DNA from: Saccharopolyspora endophytica
GTDB lineage: Bacteria; Actinomycetota; Actinomycetes; Mycobacteriales; Pseudonocardiaceae
Assembly: GCF_018070075.1 (NCBI RefSeq)
Contig: NZ_JAGPXE010000001.1
Coordinates: 248,001 to 312,000 of the forward strand
Direction: 5' to 3'
Length of the DNA: 64,000 bases
Shown here: in pieces, positions 11,107-49,709 of the stretch
Numbering within the stretch: the stretch's first letter is position 1
Layout of the letters: the number at the start of each line of letters is the position of its first letter
Translations under genes and position numbers: made by a program
Notes under the pieces: generated by a model
Databases searched by the model: none
The model's input: the letters and a program-made list of their open reading frames with translations, nothing else
What the model was told of the DNA's origin: nothing

Positions 11107-11275
11107 TTGCTCAGCGGTGCCAGTGGCGGAACCTGAGGTGGCCCTCCTGCTCCGGGCGCGCCGACTCATGTATGCCAATACACCACGTCGACACGTCCTC
11201 ACAGGAGAACCACCTCAGAACCCGCGGCGGTGCGAGCTGCTCAGGCGGTGAAGGAGAAAGCGGCTACGCCGCTTG
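11107..11275 (-). repeat. LSE copy 1 (long structured intergenic element)
   Basis: An intergenic element of the eight-copy LSE family, between convergent hspR and flavohemoglobin genes and starting 18 bases after the hspR stop. Long stem: 11133-11149 pairs with 11202-11218, with two non-Watson-Crick pairs that are G.T on the minus strand. Flanking helix gcgg/ccgc is separated by a symmetric GTT/GTT internal loop when read on the minus strand. Terminal hairpin aagcggc/gccgctt is at 11259-11275. Strand is given as that on which the odd pairs are G.U. Confidence 0.85.
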
Positions 11276-11284
11276 TGAAGGCAA

Positions 11285-11322
11285 CGAAAAGGCACCTCCC
11301 CGTCGTGGGAGGTGCCTTTTCG
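11285..11322. terminator. Bidirectional intrinsic terminator between hspR and flavohemoglobin
   Basis: A perfect 16-bp stem (11285-11300 with 11307-11322) with a 6-base loop. It has A runs on one side and T runs on the other, so it can terminate both the heat-shock operon and the convergent flavohemoglobin gene. Confidence 0.88.
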
Positions 11323-11372
11323 TGTCAGGCGAGCGGCGAAGACGGTTCGCACCGCTGATCAGGACGAGCGAC

Positions 11373-12545
11373 TCAGTCCAGCGTAAAAGGGTCGTAGCGG
11401 ATGTTGTCGAGGGTGGTGCCTGCTACGAGCATCTTCGAGACGGTGGCTCGGATCATCGCCGGGGAGCCGGAGACCAGCACGTCCCAGCCCTCCCAGGCGC
11501 CGTAGCGGGAGACGACGTCGGCGATCGTGCCGTGCTCGACCCCGTCGACGTTCGGGTCGTTCTCCAGCACGGCCGTGATCGTCAGCCACGGGTTGTGCAT
11601 CGCGATGCGGCGGAGGTTCTCCAGGTCGTAGAGGTCGTCGCGGGTGCGTCCGCCGTAGAAGAGCTGCACGCGCGGGTTCTCGCCGTACTGGGCGAGGTCG
11701 TCGATGATCGCGCGCAGCGGCGTGACGCCGGTGCCGCCGGCGACCATCAGGACGTCCGGCGAGTTCTCCCGGTCGACCGTCAGCCGACCCATCGGCGAGC
11801 CGATCCGCCACTGGTCACCGGGCTGCGCGTGGCCGACCACGGCACGGCTGACCCAACCGCCCTCGACGGAGCGGACGTGGAACTCCATGACGCCGTCGTC
11901 GCTGGGCGCGTTCGCCGGTGACAGGTACCGCCACATCCGGGGCCGCTGGGGGACCTCGACGCTGACGTACTGGCCGGGCAGGTAGGGCACCGGGTGATCG
12001 GTCTGCACGCGGACCACGGCGAGATCCCAGCTCAACCGCTCGTGGTGCAGGACCTGGCCGGTGTACCAGGCGGGGCCGTCGTCGGCGGCGGCCGCTTCGG
12101 TCATCGCCGAGGCCATGACCGTGTAGGCCTCCGCCCACGCGCGTTCGACCTGGTCGGTCCAGGAGTCACCGGCGTAGCGCTTGATGGACGCCAGCAGCGC
12201 GGTGCCGACCGCCTCGTAGTGCTGGGTGACGACACCGAACTTGCGGTGGTCGCGACCCAGCTGCTGCAGGAACGGCAGCAGCTCGTCGGGCTTGTCGACC
12301 ATCTGGATGACGTGCACGAGCGCCCGAAGCAGGCGGCTGCGCTGCACCTCCATGTTGGCGGCGAACAGCTCGCGGGTGTGCGGCGCGATGCTGAACAAGG
12401 TGCCGTAGAAGAACTTGGCCACCTCGTCGGCATGCGGTTCGACCACCGCGTAGCTCTCGCGGATGAGTCGAACCATCTTGCTCACACCGGAGTTGGACGG
12501 TTCGTTGTTCGGGGGCGGACCGGGGCTCAGTACGGCGTTCGTCAT
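11373..12545 (-). CDS. Flavohemoglobin-type oxidoreductase (globin-FAD-NAD)
   Basis: A 390-residue flavohemoglobin-like protein. Residues about 20-160 form the globin domain, with FYGTLFSIAPHTRELF containing the B10 tyrosine region and KFGVVTQHYEAVG containing the proximal histidine. An FAD-binding domain follows (PGQYVSVEVP, RMWRYLSPAN), then an NAD(P)-binding domain (MVAGGTGVTPLRAI). Classical members oxidise nitric oxide to nitrate; divergent actinomycete ones may have other roles. ATG 12545 is preferred; GTG 12569 and TTG 12599 lie in frame upstream, and none has a clear ribosome site. It diverges from a PPOX flavoprotein gene, with an inverted repeat at 12625 between them. Confidence 0.87.
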   Translation of the reverse strand: MTNAVLSPGPPPNNEPSNSGVSKMVRLIRESYAVVEPHADEVAKFFYGTLFSIAPHTRELFAANMEVQRSRLLRALVHVIQMVDKPDELLPFLQQLGRDHRKFGVVTQHYEAVGTALLASIKRYAGDSWTDQVERAWAEAYTVMASAMTEAAAADDGPAWYTGQVLHHERLSWDLAVVRVQTDHPVPYLPGQYVSVEVPQRPRMWRYLSPANAPSDDGVMEFHVRSVEGGWVSRAVVGHAQPGDQWRIGSPMGRLTVDRENSPDVLMVAGGTGVTPLRAIIDDLAQYGENPRVQLFYGGRTRDDLYDLENLRRIAMHNPWLTITAVLENDPNVDGVEHGTIADVVSRYGAWEGWDVLVSGSPAMIRATVSKMLVAGTTLDNIRYDPFTLD

Positions 12546-12624
12546 CGTTTCGGGCGCAGTCTTCTCCACGTTGGCGGCAGGCACCTGGGGTGGGCGCAAC
12601 CGCTACCTGCAAACGTCCCCCGAC

Positions 12625-12649
12625 ATCAGGGGCGACCCTAACCCCTGAT
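12625..12649. promoter_or_regulatory. Inverted repeat between flavohemoglobin and PPOX genes
   Basis: atcagggg-N9-cccctgat is a perfect 8-bp inverted repeat in the divergent promoter region. It is 80 bp from the flavohemoglobin start and 115 bp from the PPOX start. It could be the operator of a stress regulator; it does not match an NsrR or HAIR site that I know. Confidence 0.45.
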
Positions 12650-12764
12650 CGGACGTACGTCTGCCTTGATGGCACTTTCGAGTGCTTCGTAACTACTTCA
12701 CGTAGATAATCCATCAATCGGTCGGGGGAAAGCTAGTGGCGAACCTGTTACCGGACGGGGCTAC

Positions 12765-13544
12765 ATGACACTGTGGTCCGCCGTGACCCCCGATCACATC
12801 AACCCGGTCGGCGTGGCTCCCGATGCCATGCTGGACCTGGAGCTGTCCGACAGCACAACGCCCCCCGTCCCGATCCCCGCCCGATTATCCGAGCCGCAGC
12901 TCACCGACCCGTTCTGGCAGGAATCCCCGACTCTGCCCGGATCGGCCGGTGAGCACCTGCTCCAGAGCGCCTACGGCACCGAGAAGCGGGCCCGCCGCTT
13001 CTACGACGACCAGGTGCTCGACCGGCTCAACGACGAGATGAAGGAGTTCATCGGGCGCATGGAGCTGGCCTTCGTGGCGACCTCCGACGCCCGAGGCGAG
13101 TGCGACTCCAGCCTGCGGGCAGGCCCGCCCGGCTTCGTCGAGGTCCTCGACGACCAGCACGTCTGCTACCCCGAGTACCGGGGCAACGGAGTGATGGCCA
13201 GCCTCGGCAACATCAGCGAGAACCCGCACGTCGGCATCCTGCTGGTGGACTTCGTCACCGACCTGATCGGCCTGCACGTCAACGGCAAGGCCCGCATCGT
13301 CGAGGACGCCGACCTGCGCGGCATTTACCCCGCGCTGCCCTCGGAGTTCGACCGCGGCCGCACGCCCGAGCGCTGGGTGGTGGTGCAGGTCGAGGAGGCC
13401 TACATCCACTGCCGCAAGCACATCCCCCGGATGATGCCCGTCCTGCGGGAACGCACCTGGGGCACCGACGACGTCAAGCGCAAGGGTGGCGACTACTTCA
13501 GCGCCAAAGGCATGCCCCGCCCTTGGCACGAGGTCTCTGCGTGA
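12765..13544 (+). CDS. Pyridoxamine 5'-phosphate oxidase-family flavoprotein
   Basis: A 259-residue protein of the PPOX split-barrel superfamily. The core runs from MKEFIGRMELAFVATSDARG through DLIGLHVNGKARIVED, with FMN-binding residues expected around SSLRAGPPGFV. Such proteins bind flavin (FMN or F420) and act in small-molecule reductions; an anti-oxidative or NO-related role is suggested only by its divergence from the flavohemoglobin. About 90 residues precede the barrel. ATG 12765 is the first start after the divergent promoter region. LSE copy 2 begins 15 bases after its stop. Confidence 0.82.
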   Translation: MTLWSAVTPDHINPVGVAPDAMLDLELSDSTTPPVPIPARLSEPQLTDPFWQESPTLPGSAGEHLLQSAYGTEKRARRFYDDQVLDRLNDEMKEFIGRMELAFVATSDARGECDSSLRAGPPGFVEVLDDQHVCYPEYRGNGVMASLGNISENPHVGILLVDFVTDLIGLHVNGKARIVEDADLRGIYPALPSEFDRGRTPERWVVVQVEEAYIHCRKHIPRMMPVLRERTWGTDDVKRKGGDYFSAKGMPRPWHEVSA

Positions 13545-13559
13545 GGCTCCGTGGTTGTT

Positions 13560-13737
13560 CTGCTCAGCGGTGCGGGTGGCGGAACCTCAGACGCCGTCTG
13601 GCTCCGGGATCCGAGACTTGAGTATGAACGGATACGCGGCGCTACGGCTGCCCTCGCCAGACGACGTCTGAGAACCCGCGGCGGTGCCGGTTGCTCAGGT
13701 GGGGCAAGGAGAAAGCACCTCCGATGCTTGCCTGACG
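13560..13737 (-). repeat. LSE copy 2
   Basis: A full-length LSE lying 15 bases after the PPOX stop and before a co-directional MarR gene. Long stem ctcagacgccgtctgg (13586-13601) pairs with 13657-13672 in 15 of 16 positions; the odd pair is C.A on plus and G.T on minus. The apical mini-hairpin is gtatgaacggatac. The terminal hairpin (agcacc..gatgct, about 13715-13730) is weaker than in other copies. Confidence 0.85.
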
Positions 13738-13864
13738 GTTCTTGGTGATCGGTGCGGCGTCTTCCGGTTTGGGAATTGGGTTGACGAGTTCTCGGGCTGG
13801 TGCTCTGCGTTGCGGTCGTGCTCCCTAGAGTGGGGCGAAACGGTCGCGAGGTGCGGGGAGAGAC

Positions 13865-14329
13865 GTGAGCGAGCAGGACGACGAGATCGCGGAGGACCCC
13901 GCGCGCCGCGAAGCGGCCGAGGAGATCGAACGCGAGCTGGTGATGATGTTCCGCAACGCGCGGAACCTCTCCACGCACGTCGCCGCGCTGGTGCACCCGG
14001 ACCTGGACCCGGCCTCCTACACGATGTTGCTGATGGTGGCCAACGAAGGACCGCTGCGCGGCATGGACCTGGCCGGCCGCACCGGCCTGGACAAGTCCAC
14101 GGTCTCGCGGCAGATCGCCACCCTCGTCGACCTGGAGCTGCTGGAGCGCGCCCCCGACCCGGACGACGGCCGCGCCCGCCGCATCCAGCTCTCCGACCTG
14201 GGGCAGGAGCGCCTGGAGCGGGTGCGCGCCGAGCGCCGCAAGCACCTCCACGGCCAGTTCGCCAGCTGGAGCACGCAGGACCTCGCCGACCTCGCCCGAC
14301 TGCTCGGCAAGCTGAACCAGACCAGCTGA
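13865..14329 (+). CDS. MarR-family transcriptional regulator
   Basis: A 154-residue winged-helix MarR protein. The recognition region reads RGMDLAGRTGLDKSTVSRQI, followed by the wing ERAPDPDDGRARRIQLSDLG. GTG 13865 follows GGGGAGAG at correct spacing. It is co-directional with a second MarR gene 155 bp downstream and the large MFS gene; it could regulate that exporter, though the double operator sits in front of the second MarR. Its ligand is unknown. Confidence 0.88.
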   Translation: MSEQDDEIAEDPARREAAEEIERELVMMFRNARNLSTHVAALVHPDLDPASYTMLLMVANEGPLRGMDLAGRTGLDKSTVSRQIATLVDLELLERAPDPDDGRARRIQLSDLGQERLERVRAERRKHLHGQFASWSTQDLADLARLLGKLNQTS

Positions 14330-14423
14330 TCTGACGGTTCCGGCCCGCCTTCCCGGGTCCTGAATCGTCTCCTATCAGGCAAAACGGCCAAAACGGCCGG
14401 TGGTGCGAGTCACCCTCATTTCA

Positions 14424-14438
14424 GTTGCGTGCTGCAAC
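14424..14438. promoter_or_regulatory. MarR operator half 1: gttgc-N5-gcaac
   Basis: gttgc-gtgct-gcaac is a perfect inverted repeat. It overlaps a possible -35 (TTGCGT, 14425-14430) and is followed 29 bp later by an identical-arm repeat. Both lie within 61 bp of the MarR start at 14485. Confidence 0.65.
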
Positions 14439-14452
14439 CAAGTGGTCTTATT

Positions 14453-14467
14453 GTTGCCTAGAGCAAC
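14453..14467. promoter_or_regulatory. MarR operator half 2: gttgc-N5-gcaac
   Basis: gttgc-ctaga-gcaac has the same arms as the site at 14424, start-to-start 29 bp, and overlaps a plausible -10 (TATTGT, 14449-14454). It ends 17 bp before the MarR start. Paired sites over -35 and -10 fit autorepression of the MarR-exporter operon. Confidence 0.65.
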
Positions 14468-14484
14468 TAAAAGGATGGGCTCGC

Positions 14485-14976
14485 ATGGGACCTACACCAG
14501 AGACCTGCGGTGAGCTGCTCCGCCCGCTCCGCGCCTTGATGGGCCTCAAGCAGGTCGCGCTGCAACGGGGGTTGCAGCTCTCCGACCAGGTCCCCTACGC
14601 CGCGGCGGGGCTGCTCACCGAGCTCGTGCACCGCGGCGAATGCCGGGTCTCCGACCTCGCTCACCACCGCATCGTCGATGCGTCCGTGGTGAGCCGGCAG
14701 GTGAACCAGCTCGAACAAGCCGGGCTGATCACACGTCGGCCGGACCCCGCCGACCGCCGGGTCTCGCTGCTGCGGACCACCGAGCTCGGCGACCGGGTCG
14801 TCGCCGAGCTCGAGCAGAAGAAGTCGGAGTGGATCGGCGAGGCGCTGGTCGGCTGGGAGGACGCGAAGGTCCGCGAACTGGCCCGGTTGCTCGGCGACGC
14901 GATGTCCGACATCCGCCGCCACACGATCGAAAGCGGAGATCACTCAGACTCCGGGATGGGGGAAGGAACTCGATGA
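14485..14976 (+). CDS. MarR-family regulator, cotranscribed with MFS exporter
   Basis: A 163-residue MarR protein. Its recognition segment is RVSDLAHHRIVDASVVSRQV, and the wing TRRPDPADRRVSLLRTTELG is canonical. ATG 14485 has AAGGATGGG upstream; the frame is open further back but would cover the operators. Its stop overlaps the start of the MFS gene (ATGA), so the pair forms an operon. Two gttgc-N5-gcaac repeats over the promoter indicate autorepression, probably relieved by a substrate of the exporter. Confidence 0.9.
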   Translation: MGPTPETCGELLRPLRALMGLKQVALQRGLQLSDQVPYAAAGLLTELVHRGECRVSDLAHHRIVDASVVSRQVNQLEQAGLITRRPDPADRRVSLLRTTELGDRVVAELEQKKSEWIGEALVGWEDAKVRELARLLGDAMSDIRRHTIESGDHSDSGMGEGTR

Positions 14977-17480
14977 CCAGCTCGACGGAGACGGCGCCGA
15001 AGGTGTCGACTCAACCGAGCGCGCCGCACGAGTCGGCCCAGGACCAGGCGATGTCGCACCGCCAGATCCTGGAGGCCATGTCCGGCCTGATGTTGGCGCT
15101 GTTGGTCGCCATCCTCAGCTCGACCATCGTGTCCAATGCGCTGCCGAGGATCATCGCCGACCTGAACGGCACCCAGGGCCAGTACACCTGGGTCGTCACG
15201 GCGATGCTGCTGACCTCCACGGCCTCCACCCCGCTGTGGGGCAAGCTCTCCGACCTGTTCAGCAAGAAGCTGCTGTACCAGATCGCGATCACCATCTTCA
15301 CCGTCGGCTCCGTGGCCGGTGGTTTCGCGCAGTCGATGGAGACCCTGATCGGTTTCCGCGCCCTGCAGGGCATCGGCATGGGCGGCCTGCAGGCGCTGAT
15401 CCAGGTCGTGATCGCCGCGATGGTCCCGCCGCGCGACCGCGGTCGCTACAGCGGCTACATCGGCGCCACCTTCGCCGTGGCCACCGTCAGCGGTCCGCTG
15501 GTCGGCGGCGTCATCGTCGACACCCCGTGGCTGGGATGGCGCTGGTGCTTCTGGGTCACCGTGCCGATCGCCGTGGTCGCCTTCATCGTGCTCGGCCGGG
15601 TGCTCAAGCTGCCGGTGATCAAGCGCGAGGTCAAGATCGACTGGTTCGGCGCGCTGTTCCTGGTCGGCGGCGTGTCGCTGCTGCTGATCTGGGTCTCGCT
15701 GGCCGGCAAGAACTTCGACTGGCTCTCGCCGGAGACCGGCTACTTCGTCGGTGGCGGCATCGTCGCGCTGATCATCGCCGTGATCATCGAGTCCAAGCAC
15801 AGCGAGCCGATCGTGCCGCTGAAGATGTTCCGCAACCCCACGGTCACGATGGCCACCATCGGCACCGTCGCGGTCGGCACCGCGATGTTCGGCGGCGCGG
15901 TGTTCCTGGGGCAGTACTTCCAGATCGCGCGCAGCTTCAGCCCGACCACCGCGGGCCTGATGACGCTGCCGATGGTCGGCGGTCTGTTCATCTCCTCCAC
16001 GGTCAGCGGTCAGGTCATCTCCCGGTACACCGGCAAGACCAAACCCTTCCTCGTGGTCGGTTCGATCGTGATGATCATTGCGATGGGGCTACTGAGCACC
16101 GTCGATCACGAAACGAACCTGGTGCTGGTGGGGGTCTACCTCTTCCTGATGGGCACCGGAGTCGGCATGCTCATGCAGAACCTGGTGCTGGCGGTGCAGA
16201 ACGCCACCAGCGCCAAGGACATGGGCTCGACGACCTCCGTCGTCACCTTCTTCCGCACCTTGGGAGGTTCGGCTGGTGTGTCGGTGCTAGGCGCGGTGCT
16301 GGCCACCCGCGTTCAGGACTACATCGTGGAAGGGCTGGCGAAGATCCCCGGCGCGGCTCAGGCCGCGGCCTCCGGAGGCGGAACGGGATCGCTGGACATC
16401 GGACACCTGCCCGGGCCGATCCAGACCATCGTCCGCGCGGCGTACGGGGATGCCATCGGCGACATCTTCCTCATCTCGGCGTGCATCTCCGTGGTCACCT
16501 TCCTCGCGGTGCTGTTCATCCGCGAGAAGCCGTTGCGGACCACGATCGAAAGCAACGAGGAAATGGAGACGGCTTCAGTGGCCGCACACGAAGAGGGCCG
16601 GAACAACGGCGCGCAGATGAACTCCGCCCAGGCCGGCCCGTGGACCGAGCCGTCGATCCCGTCGTTCGCCTCCAACGGCGCGGCGCTGACCGGCCGGTTC
16701 ATGGACGGCCAGGAGCACGCCCAGCAGCGGGTCGTGCACGGGGTCGTCCACGACTCGATCGGCACCCCGGTGTCCGGCGTGGTGCTGACCCTCACCGACG
16801 CCAACGGGCGCCAGGTGGAGCGGGCGCGCACCGACAACGACGGCGAGTTCAGCTTCGCCGTCGACAACGGCGGCACCTACGTGCTGATCGCTTCCGGCGG
16901 CAGCTACCAGCCCACCGCCTCGATGGTGGTCGTGGCCGACCGCCCGGTGAGGCACGACGTGCAGCTGCTCGGCGCCGGTGAGCTCAGCGGTCTGGTGCAC
17001 GTCGGCGGTGTCGGCGTGCCGGGCGCGATGGTGGTGCTCACCGACGTGCGCGGCGAGGTCGTGGCCACCAACGCCACCGACGCCGACGGCGACTACGGCT
17101 TCTCCGACCTGGTCGGCGGCTCCTACGCGCTGACCGTCACCGCGGACGGATATCGTCCGGTGGCCCACCCGATCGTGGTCACAGACGGGGAGCGGGTGCG
17201 GCTCGACGTCGCCCTGCAGACCGGGGCGCAGCTGAGCGGCGTCATCCGGTCGGCCAACCTGGGCGTGCCGGTGCCGGACGCGCGGGTGACGCTGCTCGAC
17301 GGTTCGGGCGCGGTGGTGGCCGCGGGGACCACCGACATCGACGGCAACTACCACTTCACCGACCTGCCCGACGGCGAGTACACGGTGATCGCCAGCGGTT
17401 ATCCGCCGATCGCGGGCTCGCTGCGGCTGACGGGCCAGGAGACGTCGCACGACGTCGACCTGGGCTACCCCGAAGGCTGA
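14973..17480 (+). CDS. DHA2-type MFS multidrug exporter fused to three carboxypeptidase-regulatory/Cna-B-like domains
   Basis: An 835-residue fusion. Residues about 30-530 are a 14-helix drug:H+ antiporter of the DHA2 class (LWGKLSDLFSKK after helix 2, GFRALQGIGMGGLQALIQVV in helix 4, APPRDRGRY-like loop). The last 250 residues contain three similar beta-sandwich repeats, each with a DA.G..V....TD.DG.Y.F motif (RTDNDGEFSF, TDADGDYGFS, TDIDGNYHFT). Such Ig-like domains are usually extracellular, yet a 14-helix DHA2 protein normally has a cytoplasmic C terminus. ATG 14973 overlaps the MarR stop. The next gene begins with a related domain, so the two products may interact. Confidence 0.9.
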   Translation: MTSSTETAPKVSTQPSAPHESAQDQAMSHRQILEAMSGLMLALLVAILSSTIVSNALPRIIADLNGTQGQYTWVVTAMLLTSTASTPLWGKLSDLFSKKLLYQIAITIFTVGSVAGGFAQSMETLIGFRALQGIGMGGLQALIQVVIAAMVPPRDRGRYSGYIGATFAVATVSGPLVGGVIVDTPWLGWRWCFWVTVPIAVVAFIVLGRVLKLPVIKREVKIDWFGALFLVGGVSLLLIWVSLAGKNFDWLSPETGYFVGGGIVALIIAVIIESKHSEPIVPLKMFRNPTVTMATIGTVAVGTAMFGGAVFLGQYFQIARSFSPTTAGLMTLPMVGGLFISSTVSGQVISRYTGKTKPFLVVGSIVMIIAMGLLSTVDHETNLVLVGVYLFLMGTGVGMLMQNLVLAVQNATSAKDMGSTTSVVTFFRTLGGSAGVSVLGAVLATRVQDYIVEGLAKIPGAAQAAASGGGTGSLDIGHLPGPIQTIVRAAYGDAIGDIFLISACISVVTFLAVLFIREKPLRTTIESNEEMETASVAAHEEGRNNGAQMNSAQAGPWTEPSIPSFASNGAALTGRFMDGQEHAQQRVVHGVVHDSIGTPVSGVVLTLTDANGRQVERARTDNDGEFSFAVDNGGTYVLIASGGSYQPTASMVVVADRPVRHDVQLLGAGELSGLVHVGGVGVPGAMVVLTDVRGEVVATNATDADGDYGFSDLVGGSYALTVTADGYRPVAHPIVVTDGERVRLDVALQTGAQLSGVIRSANLGVPVPDARVTLLDGSGAVVAAGTTDIDGNYHFTDLPDGEYTVIASGYPPIAGSLRLTGQETSHDVDLGYPEG

Positions 17481-18512: not shown

Positions 18513-18553
18513 GAAGAAGCCGTGCGCACGTCGGGGGTGCGCACGGCTTCTTC
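18513..18553 (+). terminator. Intrinsic terminator after the YceI gene
   Basis: A perfect 17-bp stem (18513-18529 with 18537-18553) and 7-base loop, followed by a T-rich stretch. It closes the MarR-MFS-YceI unit and precedes LSE copy 3. Confidence 0.88.
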
Positions 18554-18577: not shown

Positions 18578-18750
18578 TTGCTCAGCGGTGCGGGTGGCGG
18601 AACCTCAGGCGCCTTCTGGCTCCGGGATCCGCGACTCATGTATGTCCAAGACACGGCGCTGCGGCTGTCCTCACCAGAAGACGCCTGAGAACCCGCGGCG
18701 GTGCCGGTTGCTCAGGTGGGGTACTGAGAAAGCGACTTCGTCGCTTGCCC
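18578..18750 (-). repeat. LSE copy 3
   Basis: Full-length LSE between convergent YceI and symporter genes, the only copy separated from the upstream stop by a terminator (109 bases). Long stem 18604-18619 pairs with 18674-18689, 15 of 16; the odd pair is G.T on the minus strand. Flanking gcgg/ccgc with GTT/GTT internal loop on minus. Terminal hairpin aagcgac/gtcgctt at 18730-18746. Confidence 0.87.
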
Positions 18751-23169: not shown

Positions 23170-23191
23170 CCTCGCGGCCGGGTGAGCGATT

Positions 23192-23249
23192 CGAATTTCG
23201 CGCGAAATTCGAGCCCGAACTTCGGCGTTCGAATTTCGCGCGAAATTCG
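23192..23249. repeat. P1 palindrome pair, locus B
   Basis: Two copies of the perfect 20-bp P1 palindrome (23192-23211 and 23230-23249), 38 bp start to start, with an 18-bp spacer containing cgaacttcg. The pair lies between the convergent clpB and MFS genes, 22 bases after the clpB stop. Confidence 0.92.
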
Positions 23250-23262
23250 AATCGCCCCGGCC

Positions 23263-24468
23263 TCAGCGGCGGATCGTGGACAGGGCTGCGATGGCGGCGA
23301 AGAGGGAGGCCGCCGCGGTGAAGACCAGGGTGGCCGTCGTCAGGTCCGTGATGGTGCTGATGTAGCCGAGCACGACCGCCGGGACCGTGGCCGAGAGGTA
23401 GGCGACGACGTAGATCATCGCCGCCGTGCCCGCGCGCTGGTGCGGGGCCGCCAAGCCGGTGAGCATCCGGAACGCGCCCATGAACATCAGTCCCCAGCCG
23501 ACGCCGAGCACGGCCGTCGCCACGAAGAACAGGTCGGCGTGGTGGGACAGCACCGCGGCCGCGATCCCCGCCATCGCGATGATCATCAGCACCGCTCCGA
23601 CGCGCACCGCTCGCTCGGCGGCCCAGCGGGCCAGCAGCAGCTGCGTGAGACCACCGACCCCGGCCAGCACCGCCACCGGAAGTCCGCTGATCAGGTTCGG
23701 CAGGTCGTGCACCATGCCCTTGACCACCGACGGGGCCAGCGACATGAACATCCCGCCGACGATCCACGAGGCCAGCACCATGGTCGACATCAGCGCGAAC
23801 CGGACTCCCTGGCCCGCCGGGACGACCGGCCTGCGAGGGCGCAGCGCCTCACCGATCGAGCTGGTCTTCGCCACCGGCTCCGGCATCGCGACCACGACCG
23901 GGATCGCCACGGCGAAACCGGCTGCGAGCAGCAGATAACTGGTCAGCGTCGGGCCCGGGACGAACTGCACCAGGACTCCCGACAGCAGTGATCCGCCCGC
24001 CATGCCCAGCGCCGCCGCGACCCCGTTGACCAGCGAGCCCTGGCTGGATCCGGGGCGCTGGAAGTCCAGCAGCGCACCGCTGATCGCGCTCGTCGCCGCA
24101 CCCGTGGCCAGGCCCTGCAGCACGCGGCCGGCGAACAGGCCGCCGACGCCGGTGGCCAGCGCGAGCACCAGCACCGCGGCGATCTCCACCACCAGCGCGC
24201 CGATCAGCACCGGGCGCCGTCCGATGTGGTCGGACAGCGACCCGCACAGCAGCAGCGCCACCAGGATCGCCACCGCGTAGGAGGCGAACACCTCCGTCAG
24301 GACGGTGTTGGTGAACCCCCACCGCTGCTGGTAGATCGAGTACATCGGGGACGGGGCGGTGGAGGCCATCAGGAACAGGGCGTAGATCCCGCCGATGAAC
24401 CAGAACGAGCCGGAACGTGACAACCCGCGCTCGCGCGTGAGGCTGGGGCGTGCCAGTTCGGTGGTCAT
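23263..24468 (-). CDS. MFS transporter (12-helix), divergent from TetR
   Basis: A 401-residue major facilitator protein with about 12 membrane segments, probably a drug or metabolite exporter. Conserved MFS loop residues after helix 2 read GSLSDHIGRRPVLIG, and GRVLQGLATGAATSAISGAL is the helix 4-5 region. ATG 24468 has a GAGGAAAT ribosome site. It diverges from a TetR gene across 90 bp holding the inverted repeat at 24520, the usual arrangement for a repressed exporter. Substrate unknown. Confidence 0.9.
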   Translation of the reverse strand: MTTELARPSLTRERGLSRSGSFWFIGGIYALFLMASTAPSPMYSIYQQRWGFTNTVLTEVFASYAVAILVALLLCGSLSDHIGRRPVLIGALVVEIAAVLVLALATGVGGLFAGRVLQGLATGAATSAISGALLDFQRPGSSQGSLVNGVAAALGMAGGSLLSGVLVQFVPGPTLTSYLLLAAGFAVAIPVVVAMPEPVAKTSSIGEALRPRRPVVPAGQGVRFALMSTMVLASWIVGGMFMSLAPSVVKGMVHDLPNLISGLPVAVLAGVGGLTQLLLARWAAERAVRVGAVLMIIAMAGIAAAVLSHHADLFFVATAVLGVGWGLMFMGAFRMLTGLAAPHQRAGTAAMIYVVAYLSATVPAVVLGYISTITDLTTATLVFTAAASLFAAIAALSTIRR

Positions 24469-25990: not shown

Positions 25991-26003
25991 CCGCACCGTC
26001 GGG

Positions 26004-26098
26004 CGAGCGGCGAAGCCGCTTCCTCCCTCACCACCTGAGCACCTGGCACTGCCGGGGGTTCTTCGGTGGCGAGGAGCGGTTCAGGTTCCGCCGAGCAA
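26004..26098 (+). repeat. LSE copy 8, internally deleted
   Basis: A 95-bp remnant. The terminal hairpin (agcggc-gaa-gccgct, 26006-26020), the adjacent conserved tract and both outer flanks of the long stem remain, but the central part is reduced to about 25 bases and the long stem is lost (gggg faces ccgc, not compensated). Orientation matches copies 5 and 7. Confidence 0.75.
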
Positions 26099-26141
26099 AC
26101 CGACCACGACCCCGGATCCACGAGACCGGTAGGTTCGGCGT

Positions 26142-32685: not shown

Positions 32686-32863
32686 TTCTGCGTGGCGGTG
32701 CGGGTGGCGGAACCTGACACGCCTTCTGGCTCCGGGATCCGCGACTTGAGTATGTCGAATACGCGGCGCTGCGGCTGTCCTCCCCAGAAGACGTGTCAGA
32801 ACCCGCGGCGGTGCCGGTTGCTCAGGTGGTGAAGGAGGAACCGGCTTCGCCGGTTGCCTGACG
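32686..32863 (-). repeat. LSE copy 4
   Basis: Full-length LSE 22 bases after fba, before the co-directional DUF3151 gene. Long stem ctgacacgccttctgg (32714-32729) pairs with 32784-32799, 15 of 16; the odd pair is G.T on minus. Terminal hairpin aaccggc-gaa-gccggtt (minus strand) differs from other copies in both arms together. The plus strand carries a perfect Shine-Dalgarno-like aaggagg, with no start codon after it. Confidence 0.87.
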
Positions 32864-32886: not shown

Positions 32887-32921
32887 GACGGTCCGTCTGC
32901 CCTGTGGGTGGACGGACCGTC
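32887..32921. terminator. Hairpin downstream of fba and LSE copy 4
   Basis: An 11-bp stem (32887-32897 with 32911-32921) and 13-base loop in the fba-DUF3151 gap. It can act as the fba terminator but has only a modest T-rich tail. Confidence 0.6.
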
Positions 32922-33415: not shown

Positions 33416-33449
33416 TCGTGCCCGGGTCCCGCACGTCCCGGGTGGACCG

Positions 33450-33489
33450 GATATCAGTGGAATTCCGGACCCCGATTTCCACTGAGATC
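33450..33489. repeat. P3 palindrome cluster, locus G (two units)
   Basis: gatatc-agtg-gaattc (33450-33465) and gatttc-cact-gagatc (33474-33489), both imperfect. They lie between the DUF3151 and FUSC genes. The 4-base centres are each other's reverse complement, so the two units point in opposite directions. Confidence 0.7.
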
Positions 33490-33536
33490 CGGGACCGCCC
33501 GGCGGGCGCGGGCGTTCGGTGGCGGAGGATGGTGTC

Positions 33537-34634: not shown

Positions 34635-34808
34635 GAGTATGCGGCGGAGCCGCATACTCTTCCACCACCCGAGGCGCTGGCAGCGCCGCGGGTTCGCCAG
34701 CGCCTTCGTGGCGAGTTCGCCGGGACGCCGCGTATTCGAATACTCAAGGAGCGGCGCACGGAGTCCACGGAGGCGCTCAGGTTCCGCCACCCGCACCGCC
34801 ACGCAAAG
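34635..34808 (+). repeat. LSE copy 5
   Basis: Full-length LSE 9 bases after the FUSC stop, between convergent genes. Terminal hairpin is the longest in the family: gagtatgcggc-gga-gccgcatactc (34635-34659). Inner stem agcgccttcgtgg (34699-34711) pairs with 34765-34777; one pair is G.T on plus. The outer three pairs are disrupted (gcc opposite cag). The apical loop is the palindrome gtattcgaatac. Confidence 0.85.
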
Positions 34809-39735: not shown

Positions 39736-39763
39736 ATTCGTCTCACTCCACCCCGGGGAACCC

Positions 39764-39803
39764 GATTTCAGTGGAACTCAGAGCACCGATTTCCACTGAA
39801 ATC
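39764..39803. repeat. P3 palindrome cluster, locus H (two units)
   Basis: gatttc-agtg-gaactc (39764-39779, one mismatch) and gatttc-cact-gaaatc (39788-39803, perfect), 24 bp apart start to start, as in locus G. Located between two minus-strand genes. Confidence 0.78.
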
Positions 39804-39827
39804 CGGTCATCCCGGTGGGGCAGGGGG

Positions 39828-42376: not shown

Positions 42377-42432
42377 CTCGAAGTGGCTCCCGGTCTTCGG
42401 GATCCGCGCCGACATCTGGCACGCTGGCTCGC

Positions 42433-43596: not shown

Positions 43597-43719
43597 GCCC
43601 GGCTCCGGGACTCAGGGGCACCCTGATGTTTCCCGGAACCGGGCCTTCGACCTGCCGATTTCCGCGTTCCCTCTGGCACGCTGGACGTGCGGGACGCTCC
43701 CGGTGAAGAGGTGGTCGTG

Positions 43720-43884: not shown

Positions 43885-43908
43885 GCCCATCGTTTGACAG
43901 TGGTCGGC

Positions 43909-44073
43909 TTGCGTGGCGGTGCGGGTGGCGGAACCTGACGCGCCGCCTGGCCTCCGGCCGCCACGACTGATGTATGCCAATACGCGGCGTCGCGTCGTCC
44001 TCACCCAGGCGACGCGTCAGAACCCGCGGCGTGCGAGCTGAGTCCCGCACCTGGAACAGCGGCTCCGCCGCAT
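43909..44073 (-). repeat. LSE copy 6
   Basis: Full-length LSE 24 bases after the small membrane gene, before the convergent HAD gene. Long stem ctgacgcgccgcctgg (43935-43950) pairs with 44005-44020, 15 of 16; the odd pair is G.T on minus. Apical part gtattggcatac as in copy 1. Terminal hairpin gcggc-tcc-gccgc at 44059-44071 is present; the tract before it is diverged (tgagtcccgc). Confidence 0.82.
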
Positions 44074-44125
44074 CCCTCAACAGCTCCTGGGCACCCCGGT
44101 CGGTTGCGGGAGACGTGTTCGGTGC

Positions 44126-44722: not shown

Positions 44723-44736
44723 GCGGGCCTCCGCTC

Positions 44737-45759
44737 CTAGATCCCGGCTTCGCCGATCCGGCGCAACGCCTCTTCCACGTCCGACTTGGACACGTCCCGG
44801 TGCGTGACGAACCGGACCTGCCCGTTCATCGGCACCGCCAGCACGCCCACCGAGCGCAGCCGCTGCAACGTCAGCTGCACGTCCGGGACCGCCGCCAGCA
44901 GCATGTTCGTCTGCGGCGCGGTCACCTGCCACCCGCGCTCGGTCAGGCCGTCGGCGAGCACCCGCGCGTTGTCGTGATCACCCGCCAGCGCGTCGAGGCG
45001 GTCCAGCGCGATCAGCCCGGCCGCGGCCAGCACGCCGCCCTGCCGGACGCCGCCGCCGAGCATCTTGCGAATCCGCCGCCCGGCCTTGATGAACTCCGCT
45101 TCTCCGGCCAGCACCGAGCCGACCGGCGCGCCGAGACCCTTGCTCAGGCAGACCTGCACGCTGTCCACGCCCACCGTCAGCGCCGCGGGCGGCACCCCGA
45201 GCGCCACCGAGGCGTTCCACAACCGGGCGCCGTCGAGGTGGACCTTGAGGCCGAGCTCCTTGGCCGCGGCCGCCAGCCGTGCGTGCTCGTGCGGCGGCAG
45301 GACCGCGCCACCCGCGCCGTTGTGGGTGTTCTCCAGGCACAGCAGCGTGGTGTGCAGGGCGTCGTAGGCCATGGTCAGGTTCGCCTGCGTGCGCACCGCC
45401 TCGGCCGTGGGCGCGCCCGGACCGCCGTCCCACTCCAGCGGATCCGGCATCCCGCCCGCCAGCCACGCCGCCGAACCGAGCTCGTGGTTGAGCACGTGCG
45501 CACCGCGCGGCGCGAGGAACCGGTCGCCGCGCTTGAGGTGCAGCATCAGCGCGATCAGGTTGCCCATCGTGCCGCTGGGCACCCACAACGCCGAGGCGGT
45601 GCCCAGAAGCTGGGCCACCCGTTCCTCGAGCGCGCGCATGGTGGGATCGTGGTCGAGTACGTCATCGCCGACTTCGGCGGCGGCCATCGCGGCAAGCATC
45701 TGCTCGTCGGGACGAGTCACCGTGTCGGAGCGGAGGTCGATGGGCGCCGGAGTGGTCAC
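44737..45759 (-). CDS. Low-specificity L-threonine aldolase
   Basis: A 340-residue pyridoxal-phosphate enzyme of the threonine aldolase/beta-eliminating lyase family, cleaving threonine to glycine and acetaldehyde. The cofactor lysine is in VQVCLSKGLGAPVGSVLAG, with the family N-terminal DLRSDTVTRPDEQMLAAMAA and the HLDGARLWNASVALG segment. GTG 45759 opens the gene. It precedes the HAD gene by 14 bases on the same strand, and is divergent from a sigma factor. Confidence 0.92.
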   Translation of the reverse strand: MTTPAPIDLRSDTVTRPDEQMLAAMAAAEVGDDVLDHDPTMRALEERVAQLLGTASALWVPSGTMGNLIALMLHLKRGDRFLAPRGAHVLNHELGSAAWLAGGMPDPLEWDGGPGAPTAEAVRTQANLTMAYDALHTTLLCLENTHNGAGGAVLPPHEHARLAAAAKELGLKVHLDGARLWNASVALGVPPAALTVGVDSVQVCLSKGLGAPVGSVLAGEAEFIKAGRRIRKMLGGGVRQGGVLAAAGLIALDRLDALAGDHDNARVLADGLTERGWQVTAPQTNMLLAAVPDVQLTLQRLRSVGVLAVPMNGQVRFVTHRDVSKSDVEEALRRIGEAGI

Positions 45760-45926
45760 GAACAGATCACATCACACCTGCACGGGGTCGAGGCAATGGC
45801 CCTGTGGGACGTGATCTCACCGCTGCGGTATCAATCACAGGTGGATCGGCTCGAAACAGCGTGCAACGGTTCGGGCACGCGATCCCGTCATAGCAGTGCA
45901 GGCAACGAACGAGCGGAGAGTTCCGC

Positions 45927-46442
45927 GTGGACCAGCGCGAAGAGCAGGAGTTCGCGGAGTACTTCGTGGCTCGGCGGGAGGCGGTGCGTCGGATGGCGTA
46001 CATGATGTGCGGCGACTGGCACCGCGCGGACGATCTCGCCCAGACCGCGTTCATCGCCCTGCACCGCCACTGGCGAAAGGTCCGGGACAAGGGCGCGCTC
46101 GACGCGTACGTGCGCCGGACCTTGACCCGGGCGGTGATCGACGAGTCGAGGCGGCCCTGGCGACGGGAGAGGGCTGCCGAGACTCTGCCCGACAGTCCGG
46201 TCGACGACCCGGACGTGGACGACTCGGTGTCCACCAGGCAGACCCTCATCGCGGGGTTGCGCAAGGTGCCGCCGAAGCAGCGCGCCGTGCTGGTCCTGCG
46301 GTTCCTCGAGGGGCTGGACGTCGCGGGAGTGGCGGCGGTGATGCGATGCAGCGAAGGAACCGTGAAGAGCCAGTGCGCCCGGGGGTTGGCGACGCTGCGA
46401 GAGGTGCTGGGAGACGAGCTCGGGGATCTGAGGTCCGCGTGA
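45927..46442 (+). CDS. SigE-family ECF sigma factor
   Basis: A 171-residue sigma factor. Region 2 at about 15-80 (RRMAYMMCGDWHRADDLAQT), region 4 at about 112-165 (LRKVPPKQRAVLVLRFLEGL, then the DNA-binding helix around CSEGTVKSQCARGLATL). GTG 45927 follows GGAGAG. It is followed 12 bases later by a membrane protein gene, the usual sigma/partner arrangement. Target promoters are not evident here. Confidence 0.9.
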   Translation: MDQREEQEFAEYFVARREAVRRMAYMMCGDWHRADDLAQTAFIALHRHWRKVRDKGALDAYVRRTLTRAVIDESRRPWRRERAAETLPDSPVDDPDVDDSVSTRQTLIAGLRKVPPKQRAVLVLRFLEGLDVAGVAAVMRCSEGTVKSQCARGLATLREVLGDELGDLRSA

Positions 46443-46454
46443 AGGGGGTGCGGG

Positions 46455-47111
46455 TTGGACGAGCGCAAGCTCGAAGAGCTTTTCCGTGACTCGGTGCGAG
46501 CCGTTCCGCCGGCGTCGTTCGACGAAGGTGACATCTCGACGGCGTCGCGGCGGATCACGGCCCGGCGCCGGATGACCGCGACCGCCGGTGGGACGGCGGT
46601 GGCGGCCGCGGTGCTGGTCGGCGGGATCGGTGTGGGAGCCGGTTGGTTCTCGTCGACGACCGAGACGGTGGCGAGCCCGCCGCCGGTGGTACCGCTGACG
46701 GTGGCGCCCGGCCCGCAGGTCGAGTCCGGCGGGATCACCCCGCGCTCGGCCGGCTGCCAGCCGGACGCGTCGCTGGTCGAAGCGGTCGAGGCGACGCTGC
46801 CCGAAGCCGGGAGCACCACGCCGACATCGGTGCGCACGTGCCCGACCGGCGCGAAGGCCGCGGCGTTCTCGCTGCGCGACGGTGCCGCGGCCGGGCGGGT
46901 GACGGTGATGATCAGCCCGGCGGGCGCGGCGCAGGCGGGCCAGTCGGCCCCGGGTGACGTGCAGCGTCCCGACGGTGCGCAGCAGTCGGTGCGCAAGGCG
47001 CGCAGCGGCAAGCTCGTGGTGGTGCTCAGCGAGCCCGAGGCCGGTTCGCCGGGGGCTCCGTTCGTCGCGCGGGTCGGCAGCATCGCCGGGGATCTCGCCA
47101 CCCGGTTCTGA
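46455..47111 (+). CDS. Membrane protein paired with sigma factor
   Basis: A 218-residue single-span protein. Residues 1-39 are cytoplasmic and basic (RITARRRMTAT), a helix follows (GGTAVAAAVLVGGIGVGAGW, 45-64), and the long external region has two cysteines (GCQPD, RTCPTG) and is rich in P, S and T. Position suggests an anti-sigma factor, but no HxxxCxxC zinc motif is present and the cytoplasmic part is short, so it may be a different partner. TTG 46455 is the start, with GAAGGGGG upstream. It is cotranscribed with the sigma gene. Confidence 0.72.
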   Translation: MDERKLEELFRDSVRAVPPASFDEGDISTASRRITARRRMTATAGGTAVAAAVLVGGIGVGAGWFSSTTETVASPPPVVPLTVAPGPQVESGGITPRSAGCQPDASLVEAVEATLPEAGSTTPTSVRTCPTGAKAAAFSLRDGAAAGRVTVMISPAGAAQAGQSAPGDVQRPDGAQQSVRKARSGKLVVVLSEPEAGSPGAPFVARVGSIAGDLATRF

Positions 47112-47166
47112 TCGGTGAAGCGGTTGGTCGGCCGTGCTGCGGGGGCTTCTCCGCAGCGGCGATCAA

Positions 47167-47179
47167 CCGGACGTTCCGG
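47167..47179. promoter_or_regulatory. Inverted repeat upstream of TetR gene
   Basis: ccgga-cgt-tccgg is a perfect 5-bp inverted repeat 8 bp upstream of a likely -10 (TAGGAT, 47188-47193) and 22 bp before the TetR start. It may be the TetR's own operator. Confidence 0.5.
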
Positions 47180-47201
47180 ACACGGCATAGGATCGCGGGT
47201 C

Positions 47202-47786
47202 ATGACAGCGGCCAGCACACCGAAGGGCGAGCGGCGGCGGCAGGCGTTGGTGGCGGCTGCGGCGCAGCTGCTCGTCGAGGGCGGGTTCGACGCGGTGCGG
47301 CACCGCGCCGTGGCCGAGCGCGCCGCGCTCCCCCTGGCGTCGACCACCTACTACTTCTCCTCGCTGGAAGACCTGATCACCGCAGCGGTGGAGCACAACG
47401 CGAGGGAGGAGCTCGCCGCCGGGCGAGCCCGCCTCGCCGATCTGTCCGAGCAGCAGCGCAGCACCGACGCGGTGATCGAACTCCTGCTGGACCTGCTCCT
47501 GGGCGTCGACTCCCGGCACGGCGGTGTCGAGCCGGTGCTGCTGCGCTACGAGCGGCTGGTCGGCTCGCCGCGCCGCCCTTACCTGGCCCCGCTGATGCGC
47601 GAGATGGCCGTCGAGCTGCAGAAGCTGCTCGCGGAGATCTTCTACCGCAGCGGCGTGGAGGTGGGTGCGGAGCGGCTCACCGAACTGGTCGCGCTGGTCG
47701 ACGGAGCCGTGGTGAACGCGCTGATCGAGTCCGATCCCGATCCGCGCGGAGTGGCCCGCAGAATGTTGCGAACGCAGCTTTCCTGA
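47202..47786 (+). CDS. TetR-family regulator
   Basis: A 194-residue TetR repressor. DNA-binding domain at about 10-58 (RRRQALVAAAAQLLVEGGFD, then VRHRAVAERAALPLASTTYYFSSL). The C-terminal domain is the variable ligand pocket. ATG 47202 has no ribosome site but TAGGAT (47188-47193) 8 bases upstream, consistent with a leaderless message. It is not beside an obvious transporter, so its regulated gene is unclear. An upstream inverted repeat may serve for autoregulation. Confidence 0.87.
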   Translation: MTAASTPKGERRRQALVAAAAQLLVEGGFDAVRHRAVAERAALPLASTTYYFSSLEDLITAAVEHNAREELAAGRARLADLSEQQRSTDAVIELLLDLLLGVDSRHGGVEPVLLRYERLVGSPRRPYLAPLMREMAVELQKLLAEIFYRSGVEVGAERLTELVALVDGAVVNALIESDPDPRGVARRMLRTQLS

Positions 47787-47841
47787 TTCGCGTGCAAGAA
47801 CGCCGCTCGGTCATCTGGCGAACCGAGAACGTTTTTTCACA

Positions 47842-48108
47842 TTAAAAGTCCCAACACGTTTCCGCGTAATTCTTGACCTCGGCGATTCCTTCGCACGCTG
47901 GGCACTTTCTCGTGACTTTCTTCGTCTGCGGATCGCGTCCGAGCGGGGTTGACTGCGGAATCTTGATCTGAACGTCGCAGAGCGCCGCTACGCATTGCCC
48001 GGCATATACCGCTCCTGGTCGCATGGTTGTGGCGTGGCGTTCGGCCTGACCTGTGCCCACGATCCAGAACACGTCCTGCCGATCTTCGGCGAACCTGGTG
48101 ATGTTCAT
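47842..48108 (-). CDS. Small Cys-rich protein of unknown function
   Basis: An 88-residue protein that I do not recognise. It has CPACEG and a late cysteine (ETCWDF) plus CVAAL and CDVQ pairs, so a zinc ribbon is plausible. The first part (FAEDRQDVFWIVGTGQAERH) is well conserved in style with small Pseudonocardiaceae proteins. Base composition is lower in GC than its neighbours, which hints at acquisition. ATG 48108 has GGGAG upstream; an overlapping frame of similar length is treated as non-coding. Divergent from the threonine synthase gene. Confidence 0.6.
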   Translation of the reverse strand: MNITRFAEDRQDVFWIVGTGQAERHATTMRPGAVYAGQCVAALCDVQIKIPQSTPLGRDPQTKKVTRKCPACEGIAEVKNYAETCWDF

Positions 48109-48293
48109 CCGCTCCCGTTCCTGTGCACAGCCGCGAATGCGTCGGCCAACGATAAGATCGCGCCGTTGTATTAGTCCAGAATCCCACACCTGATCGAGCG
48201 CAATTGATGATTTCGCCGAACCAGTGATTGACTGGAAAGTTTCACGACGTGAACACCCTGGACCGGGCGGGTTCGGCGGGTCAGGATTCGCTC

Positions 48294-49520
48294 ATGGTGA
48301 ACTCCACGGGCAGCACCCTCAGCCACCTCGAGTGCACGGCGTGCGGGCGGACCTTCGACGCCGACGTCCTGCACCGGTTGTGCGAGGAGTGCGGCAAGGT
48401 CCTGTACCCGCGCTACGACCTGGCGAACGTCCGCCTGCGGCCGTCGGACCTGCTGACCCGGGAGCCCTCGATGTGGCGGTACCGGGAGGTGCTGCCGATC
48501 CGCGACGCCGAGCACATCGTCAGCCTCGGCGAGGGGTTCACGCCGCTGCTGGCCGCGCCGCGGCTGTCCGATCGGCTGGGCATCTCCGACGTGCGGATCA
48601 AGGACGAGGGGCAGAACCCGACCGGCAGCTTCAAGGCGCGCGGCATGTCCGCCGCCGTGTCGCGAGCCCGGGAGCTGGGCGCCAAGTCCGTCGCCGCGCC
48701 GTCGGCGGGCAACGCCGGTGGGGCGCTCGCCGCCTACGCGGCGCGCGCCGGGCTGGCCGCGGGAGTGGTGATGCCCGAGGACTGCCCGCGCATCAACCAG
48801 GTCGAAGCCGTCGTCTCGGGTGCCGACACGTGGCTGGTCGAGGGTCTGATCGACGACGCCGGACGCCTGGTGCGCACCACCTCCGAGGCGCGCGGCTGGT
48901 TCGACGTCTCCACGCTCAAGGAGCCCTACCGCGTGGAGGGCAAGAAGACGCTCGGCTACGAGCTGGCCGAGCAGCTCGGCTGGGAGCTGCCGGACGTGGT
49001 GATCTACCCGACGGGCGGCGGCACCGGGCTGGTCGGCATGTGGAAGGCGTTCGCCGAGATGACCGAGCTCGGCTGGATCGGCGAGCAGCGCCCGCGCATG
49101 GTCGTCGTCCAGGCCGAGGGCTGCGCTCCGATCGTCCGCGCCCACGACCAGGGCGAACGGCACGCGCCGCGCTGGGAGGACGCCACCACCGACGCCAGCG
49201 GCCTGCGGGTTCCCGTTGCCGTCGGCGATTACCTGATTCTCGACGCCGTCCGCGATTCCGGCGGCACGGCGGTGTCGGTGAGCGAGGACGAGATGCGCGA
49301 GGCCACCAGGGAGCTCGCCGCCGCCGAGGGCATCTACCCGGCGCCCGAAGGGGCCGCGACGCTCGCCGCGCTCCACCGGCTCCGCGACACCGGCGCGGTC
49401 ACCGACACCGACCGAGTCGTGCTCTTCAACACCGGCGCCGGCCAGAAGTACCCGGACTTCGTCCCGGCCACGCCGGAGGTGGTCCCAGCGAACTCCCCAG
49501 CCTGGAAAACCGGACTCTGA
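48294..49520 (+). CDS. Threonine synthase-like PLP enzyme with N-terminal zinc ribbon
   Basis: A 408-residue fold-type II PLP enzyme. It starts with a rubredoxin-like zinc ribbon (CTACGRTF and CEECGKVL), then the synthase core: the cofactor lysine in GSFKARGM, the asparagine loop SAGNAGGALAAY, and the phosphate-binding glycine loop PTGGGTGLVGMWKAF. Threonine synthases of this class convert O-phosphohomoserine to threonine; related enzymes have other substrates. ATG 48294 is used; CAGGAT 6 bases upstream may be a leaderless -10, and GTG 48249 or TTG 48228 are alternatives. It precedes LSE copy 7. Confidence 0.9.
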   Translation: MVNSTGSTLSHLECTACGRTFDADVLHRLCEECGKVLYPRYDLANVRLRPSDLLTREPSMWRYREVLPIRDAEHIVSLGEGFTPLLAAPRLSDRLGISDVRIKDEGQNPTGSFKARGMSAAVSRARELGAKSVAAPSAGNAGGALAAYAARAGLAAGVVMPEDCPRINQVEAVVSGADTWLVEGLIDDAGRLVRTTSEARGWFDVSTLKEPYRVEGKKTLGYELAEQLGWELPDVVIYPTGGGTGLVGMWKAFAEMTELGWIGEQRPRMVVVQAEGCAPIVRAHDQGERHAPRWEDATTDASGLRVPVAVGDYLILDAVRDSGGTAVSVSEDEMREATRELAAAEGIYPAPEGAATLAALHRLRDTGAVTDTDRVVLFNTGAGQKYPDFVPATPEVVPANSPAWKTGL

Positions 49521-49532
49521 ACCCAGAACACC

Positions 49533-49709
49533 CGTCAGGCAAGCACCGAAGGTGCTTTCTCCTTCACCACCTGAGCAGCTGGCACCGCCGGGGGTTCTGA
49601 GCGGCTTCGTGGCGAGCACGCCGCGACGCCGCGTATTCACATACTCAAGGAGTGGCGCGCGGAGACCACGGAGCCGCTCAGGTTCCCCCACCCGCACCGC
49701 CACGCAAAA
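49533..49709 (+). repeat. LSE copy 7
   Basis: Full-length LSE 12 bases after the threonine synthase stop, ending 23 bases before the purB -10. Terminal hairpin aagcacc-gaa-ggtgctt at 49541-49557. Long stem ctgagcggcttcgtgg (49597-49612) pairs with 49666-49681, 15 of 16, the odd pair being G.T on plus. The flanking helix is gggg/cccc instead of gcgg/ccgc of other copies, a double change that keeps pairing. Confidence 0.88.

Follow-up and report, generated by a model that had tools for sequence, protein, structure and literature searches.

The stretch of DNA that we analysed, hereafter the window, comprises 64,000 nucleotides of the Saccharopolyspora endophytica genome (NCBI RefSeq assembly GCF_018070075.1, contig NZ_JAGPXE010000001.1, positions 248,001 to 312,000) and contains eight copies of a structured intergenic element, each lying 3′ of a plus-strand gene. 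A preliminary description, made from the letters of the window, had recognized these eight copies, one of them truncated, and proposed that the whole genome and related genomes be searched with a covariance model built from them. We built such a model, R1, from 34 copies of the window's genome, seven of them window copies. R1 matches all eight places with scores of 46–207 bits (E from 1.5e-6 to 7.7e-37), values that are partly high by construction because seven of the eight copies went into the model. These matches, together with the covariation of the stems described below, bear out a structured, repeated intergenic element.

Copy 1 (core 11108..11277, (+) strand, 150.8 bits, E = 2.6e-26; the (+) strand is here the one co-directional with the majority of upstream genes) begins 19 nt after the TAG of an hspR-like gene, a match above the NCBIfam cut-off. 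It is directly followed by a terminator-like inverted repeat (11287..11321, read by eye), and comparable hairpins come after the stop in relatives in which the site is empty. Copy 2 (13561..13732, (+), 193.2 bits) lies 16 nt after a TGA. Copy 3 (18579..18749, (+), 206.6 bits, E = 7.7e-37) lies 110 nt after the stop of a YceI-like gene, which falls below the NCBIfam cut-off, and is preceded by a terminator-like inverted repeat at 18519..18547, also read by eye. The truncated copy 4 (26002..26109, (−), 46.2 bits, E = 1.5e-6) is antisense and lies about 11 nt after a plus-strand TAG. Copy 5 (32689..32858, (+), 195.6 bits) begins 25 nt after the TGA of a class II fructose-bisphosphate aldolase gene, and the terminator-like hairpin of that gene is retained 3′ of it (32887..32921, by eye); in relatives with an empty site, this hairpin comes soon after the stop. 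Copy 6 (34636..34805, (−), 121.8 bits) sits between two convergent stop codons, which lie directly against each other where relatives lack the element, copy 7 (43910..44076, (+), 127.3 bits) lies 25 nt after a TAA and carries the other tail subtype (AGTCCCGCACCTG), and copy 8 (49538..49706, (−), 156.0 bits) is antisense, about 17 nt after the TGA of a threonine synthase gene (above the NCBIfam cut-off).

The spacing reported in the preliminary description is confirmed: seven copies lie about 10–25 nt after a plus-strand stop, and the one at 18578 lies at about 110 nt, with the inverted repeat at 18519–18547 in between. The orientation count of five minus and three plus keeps its split with the signs reversed, to five plus and three minus, the earlier reading having apparently been taken from the terminal hairpin on the other strand; the three minus copies are antisense to their plus-strand neighbour gene. 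That the element always lies 3′ of a plus-strand gene is true inside the window and fails genome-wide, where, as a rule, copies follow a stop codon on whichever strand it lies, and no special role falls to plus-strand genes.

The core, about 170 nt long, consists of a long interrupted hairpin and a terminal hairpin. In gene-sense order, a left end of about 20 nt is followed by TTGC, a GC-rich tract with GGCGGAACCT and a 16-bp stem; then come an upper stem with an apical GTAT..ATAC hairpin, a returning arm ending GAACCCGCGGCGGTGC and a tail with the terminal hairpin, the end being GCCTGACG in the best-scoring subfamily. At least two tail subtypes occur in the window's genome. In an alignment of 92 copies from other loci, which was fitted to R1 and so favours the structure, 28 of 38 pairs had changed on both sides (shuffled mean 18.1; 0/500 shuffles as high), 93.2% of pairing cells were paired versus 77.3% after shuffling, and both sides had changed in 432 cells versus 147 (again 0/500 as high). 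The covariation score of the same copies, 0.331, drops to 0.083 or less when partners are shifted by 1–3 columns. On an unfitted MAFFT alignment of 34 copies, RNAalifold found compensatory changes in 17 of the 38 pairs. The core is under strong pairing constraint. A closing stem common to all copies showed no overall excess, loci L187 and L215 being single striking cases, and in the subfamily ending GCCTGACG the terminal hairpin has no U-run after it. Sites of the attC type have AAC...GTT core sites around a hairpin; the element does not fit this definition, since the strand drawn here has a conserved AAC...AAC.

The non-Watson–Crick pairs of the 16-bp stem indicate which strand folds. On the gene-sense strand, A·C mismatches outnumber G·U by 61:11 in 55 unique arm pairs from the window's genome and by 43:6 in 36 unique arm pairs from named loci, counts read without alignment gaps and excluding arms that could not be anchored (36/119 and 43/92, respectively). 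Three further sets, whose species overlap partly with the main ones, gave 24:7, 7:1 and 10:2. A count of parsimony events over a tree with 131 copies, from which 75 of 206 had been dropped, gives 41:13 (P = 1.8e-4). Because an A·C on one strand is a G·U on the other, foldability has been preserved on the reverse complement of the gene-sense strand. When one copy was compared with its own shuffles, the reverse complement gave a z of −2.89 (0/200) and the gene-sense strand −1.53 (18/200). Absolute folding energy points slightly the other way, with a mean of −83.0 kcal/mol for the gene-sense strand versus −81.3 kcal/mol for the complement, which was lower in 44 of 114 copies; simple shuffles of 60 copies were also strand-dependent (−71.0 gene-sense, −64.5 complement). 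The energy evidence on the strand is weak, and the mismatch counts carry the point.

The window's genome (7.17 Mb, 34 contigs) holds at least 150 R1 matches, at least 149 of them with E ≤ 1.3e-8; this high count, with the covariation in 92 copies from other loci, excludes chance. A search of 19 genomes of the same genus (Saccharopolyspora-type), one of them the window's, found the element in every one, with at least 90 matches in 12 and 65 to 89 in five. The remaining two, G010 with 7 matches and G018 with 4, are nearly without copies. A family-wide sample contained it in 30 of 120 genomes and 12 of 46 genera, and 0 of 12 genomes searched from other families of the order had it. In a pattern scan of named genomes, the 80 loci listed came only from Saccharopolyspora, Actinopolyspora, Halopolyspora and a few Amycolatopsis. 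The covariance model has disclosed very many further copies, both in the element's own genome and in relatives. On the complete chromosome G003 (104 matches), R1 finds copies about 175 nt long; several weaker matches with lengths of 223–231 nt and many of about 168 nt, mostly of 50–80 bits, suggest a second, distinct subfamily.

Rfam gave 0 matches at gathering thresholds across the window and 0 up to an E of 1 in eight loci. With one copy as the query, blastn returned no match in plasmids and phages, a search from which records of the own or near genomes may be excluded, and one exact pattern had no match in viral contigs. The earlier remark that no named element has this layout thus agrees with our searches: we found neither a name nor a named family, and no paper describing the element turned up in a literature search limited largely to freely readable main texts. 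The accessible text of a report on long inverted repeats and antisense transcription enriched at gene 3′ ends mentions no such short element (PMC3610266), nor does that of another (PMC3827479).

To describe placement, we called genes with a purpose-written, simple codon-usage script and no published gene finder; stops and distances rest on these calls. The contexts of 119 copies in the window's genome are 54 tandem-sense, 42 convergent, 21 antisense and 2 divergent; the background for gap types was taken from the same loci as the copies. Among the 114 complete copies (123 R1 matches minus 9 that were weak, truncated or opposite-strand duplicates), 93 (about 81%) are co-directional with the upstream gene. 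As many as 72 of these 93 sense copies start 5–30 nt after the stop, where 30 would be expected under even placement in the gap, and none lies 31 to 68 nt after it. The same distance of 5–30 nt is found in named Saccharopolyspora for 24 of 42 copies (7.2 expected), in Actinopolyspora and Halopolyspora for 20 of 24 (3.6 expected) and in Amycolatopsis for 3 of 4 (1.6 expected), too few copies in this last case; 12 of the 92 hits in named genomes were dropped for want of a called gene on one side. In G081, a complete genome of the same family, 15 of 27 sense copies start 5–30 nt after the stop, a count for which no expectation was computed. One copy in S. rosea was called within a gene. The stops used in the window's genome are TGA 47, TAG 18 and TAA 7 against a background of 318/58/24. 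A plain TGA target is rejected, TAG and TAA stops being above their background share.

Copy presence varies among relatives of about 90–95% identity (genomes are numbered, the window's being G000). At the aldolase site G000 has a complete element, G007 and G009 have a shortened one in the same position, and G016, G001 and G011 have none; in all six a terminator-like hairpin comes next (by eye). The position of the aldolase stop is the same in 22 of 22 genomes searched, filled or empty, and the site is also filled in G008 and G015, which belong to another clade. The site at 34636 is empty in G016, G009 and G007, where the convergent stops abut. Six of 22 genomes have the hspR-like site filled (the window's, G004, G015, G017, G003 and, with an antisense copy, G008). 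Behind g25250_25990 the copy is antisense in G000, G016 and G009 and sense in G008; behind g33537_34625 it is antisense in G000 and sense in G001. Such cases point to repeated, independent use of these 3′ ends. Across 12 genomes most window sites are not shared, and a few 3′ ends are reused in distant clades, sometimes in the opposite orientation. These comparisons show orthologous filled and empty sites with the gene stop and the terminator-like hairpin intact.

The ends of the unit were profiled in S. hirsuta (G004) by a right-end pattern search, which gave 54 places, of which 30 were examined and 25 had both ends usable. The unit starts with GAGG in 24 of these 25 and with GGGG in one, and its length is 249–252 bp in 18, the others measuring 149, 240 or 263–268 bp; it is a short unit, far below 1 kb, and this length would suit a lack of coding capacity. 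The left 4-mer, which the pattern left unconstrained, is CANT in 23 of 25. The 4-bp flanks are equal on the left and right in 17 of 25 (shuffled mean 11.5, P = 0.002), the right 4-mer being limited by a pattern that preset the right end and the following CARTG with one mismatch allowed. On insertion, the final T of the target and the GA at the start of the unit combine into a junctional TGA; in S. indica (L056) this triplet reads as the stop of the gene, and the right flank retains CAGTGATCC. Ends resembling AG..TTTTTC occur in S. hirsuta and S. shandongensis. Among the 48 best copies of the window's genome, 32 have TGACG at the end of the stretch after the terminal hairpin; when copies with TGACG near the end were aligned on it, which dropped 16 of the 48, all later positions were at 0.66 or below.

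Flanks resembling palindrome arms such as TTTCAATGGAAA were found in 18 of the 25 S. hirsuta loci, a count made without a control, and most of the palindrome-sited copies that were found there by their core are not at a stop. Several automatic terminal-inverted-repeat matches in S. hirsuta were discarded as arms of host palindromes. Palindromes of the CCGGATTTCAGTGGAAATC type, similar to those flanking the S. hirsuta element, lie in the window at 33447-33496, 39761-39810 and 51223-51296. The window also holds a second dispersed palindrome, TTCGAATTTCGCGCGAAATTCGA, single or paired (1169-1210, 23190-23269 and 52948-53027), and repeats of the CGGATTACCGCCGTAAT type as an inverted pair (6528-6572 and 59716-59760). 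At L005, L191 and L210, additional partial right ends (CTTGCCTGA) stand directly 3′ of the element, which suggests repeated insertion beside older copies. Five G004 contigs (C6, C8, C12, C18 and C25) start about 103–113 bases ahead of the element's right end; such assembly breaks inside the element fit near-identical, recent copies.

Assuming base 1 to be the origin and the half-way point the terminus, we find that 32 of 38 copies in G081 point along the presumed replication direction. For the genes at 30 of the loci the figure is 55 of 101; in G003 the count is 71 of 104 copies. This orientation bias, strong in one genome and weaker in another, suggests that insertion is coupled to the replication fork. 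Among transposases, the window's genome has one match to PF01797 (Y1), one weak match to PF01609 (DDE_Tnp_1) and none to PF13340 (DUF4096). The sole Y1 match (L323, C29:536085) lies beside a tnpB-like reading frame, in an arrangement of the IS605 type. As a parent element this IS605 locus is unsupported, the sole Y1 locus having no R1 match. In G003 and G081, the two genomes with complete match lists, matches reach at most 231 nt, so that no copy with a gene inside the core was seen there.

Taken together, the filled and empty sites, the stop-proximal placement and the flanking repeats make it likely that the element is a non-autonomous mobile element. Entry would split the stop behind its T (T|GA, T|AG or T|AA), and the first two bases of the element, GA in S. 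hirsuta, would rebuild the stop, so that proteins would be left unchanged. Insertions inside genes would be lost, and survivors would therefore concentrate at harmless places, namely stops, 3′ regions and palindromes. The strand opposite the gene-sense one, as single-stranded DNA or RNA, may be what a trans-acting enzyme recognizes. Several observations weigh against such a mobile element. The 4-mer pairs are unequal in 8 of the 25 S. hirsuta loci; of seven core-found S. hirsuta copies with this left end, four have the right end of the pattern and three have another; and six core-found copies from S. elongata and S. shandongensis have matching 4-mers in only three cases (by eye). In the window's genome, terminal inverted repeats show no excess over shuffled pairs, direct repeats of at least 7 nt occur in 24 of 114 copies versus 11% by chance, and the stop usage misfits a plain TGA target. 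No autonomous relative was found in the search for three transposase families in that genome, and the IS605-type locus has no R1 match within or beside it. Moreover, should the mobile strand be the folded one, the replication orientation would differ from that expected of insertion of the IS200/IS605 type.

Two conventional movers would be forms of the mobile-element reading, and their likelihoods are not to be added to its own. A miniature inverted-repeat transposable element (MITE) that depends on a DDE transposase, its autonomous partner being absent from the window's genome or outside the families searched, is possible, if doubtful: the near-constant unit length, 4-bp flanking repeats and AG..TTTTTC-like ends of S. 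hirsuta argue for it, whereas the window's genome lacks an excess of terminal inverted repeats and a covarying, strand-specific fold is unnecessary for a MITE. Single-stranded DNA with palindromic ends, moved by a Y1 transposase as in IS200/IS605 or REP/RAYT systems, would fit the terminal hairpins, the orientation with replication, the strand-specific fold and the resemblance of one end, CGTCAGGC, to CGTC-tagged REPs as these appear in the accessible text of PMC3733652. We consider it unlikely, however: the window's genome has a single Y1 gene, which no R1 match adjoins, S. hirsuta shows target repeats of 4 bp, and size and stem are unlike those of 20–40 bp REPs. It is also conceivable, but distinctly unlikely, that the structured nucleic acid, RNA or single-stranded DNA of the strand opposite the gene-sense one, is itself the mobile principle and is put at stop codons during replication by an undescribed machinery that would tolerate varied ends (left ends and tail subtypes) and require the core fold.

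Roles for the host were weighed against the mobile element as well. The preliminary description had offered a terminator or 3′-end stabiliser, a MITE-like mobile element and a binding site for a chromosome protein; the second is the best of the three. A simple intrinsic terminator is rejected, judging by eye, because terminator-like hairpins remain downstream of the element (copies 1 and 5), the subfamily ending GCCTGACG has no U-run behind its terminal hairpin and the stretch after the terminal hairpin ends TGACG in most of the best copies. A functional RNA module of the 3′ untranslated region (UTR), acting as an mRNA stabiliser or as a processing or termination signal, selected at a fixed distance after the stop and spread by recombination, would be in keeping with the tight stop spacing, the roughly 81% of copies in sense, the strong covariation and the site between stop and terminator-like hairpin. 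Yet a host function in the 3′ UTR hardly explains the fold, given that in 93 of 114 copies the strand under constraint runs antisense to the gene upstream, and recognition of this form by a trans-acting enzyme would explain it more easily; the retained terminator-like hairpins, the differences in copies between relatives of about 90–95% identity and the many S. hirsuta copies in palindromes, most of the core-found ones off stops, also speak against such a module, which we regard as improbable. A DNA site for a chromosome-organizing protein, oriented with replication, is scarcely plausible. The co-orientation in G081 and the high copy number would suit it, but it must contend with copy turnover and with same-genus counts of 65 to at least 90 in 17 of 19 genomes but 7 and 4 in two, and it accounts for neither the filled and empty sites nor the flanking 4-bp repeats.

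Among known systems, HEARO, with the IscB omega RNA, is a mobile element that bears a structured RNA and is said to insert next to ATGA or GTGA. The present element differs in lacking an Rfam match up to an E of 1 in eight loci; nuclease genes near copies were not searched for. Mycobacterial interspersed repetitive units (MIRUs) have DTGA as their target. As described in the accessible text of PMC12548453, they are short mobile actinobacterial repeats, inserted at gene boundaries with little effect on expression, that are sited at start codons and have an open reading frame inside the unit. Insertion spares translation in both; the present element, by contrast, lies behind stops, sometimes with a terminator-like hairpin following, and has a covarying fold, and 40 of 114 copies lie in convergent pairs with no start nearby. 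CGTC-tagged REPs and REPINs are likewise dispersed palindromic repeats found mostly downstream of genes, and one end of our element has CGTCAGGC before a hairpin. In the accessible text of PMC3733652, these REPs have 8–9 bp stems and 4–5 nt loops, and Actinobacteria are not among the five phyla named. An element of 170–250 bp with a long, interrupted and conserved multi-loop stem does not fall within the REP definition. Insertion sequences with REP palindromes as targets, covered in the accessible part of PMC1525189, provide a precedent for insertion into palindromes; that habit is common to both, whereas the present unit is only about 250 bp and those are insertion sequences.

If the element is indeed mobile, it would represent a very abundant element family, belonging to the Saccharopolyspora group, that gets by in a gene-dense genome through insertion into stop codons and leaves proteins unchanged, and it would offer a natural, testable case of stop-codon-proximal insertion. 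Its strand-specific fold would be maintained by mobility rather than by a host function, and it would be an orphan non-autonomous element whose mover is still to be identified. Many 3′ untranslated regions in these bacteria would then hold a structured sequence of about 170–250 nt for which we found no name.

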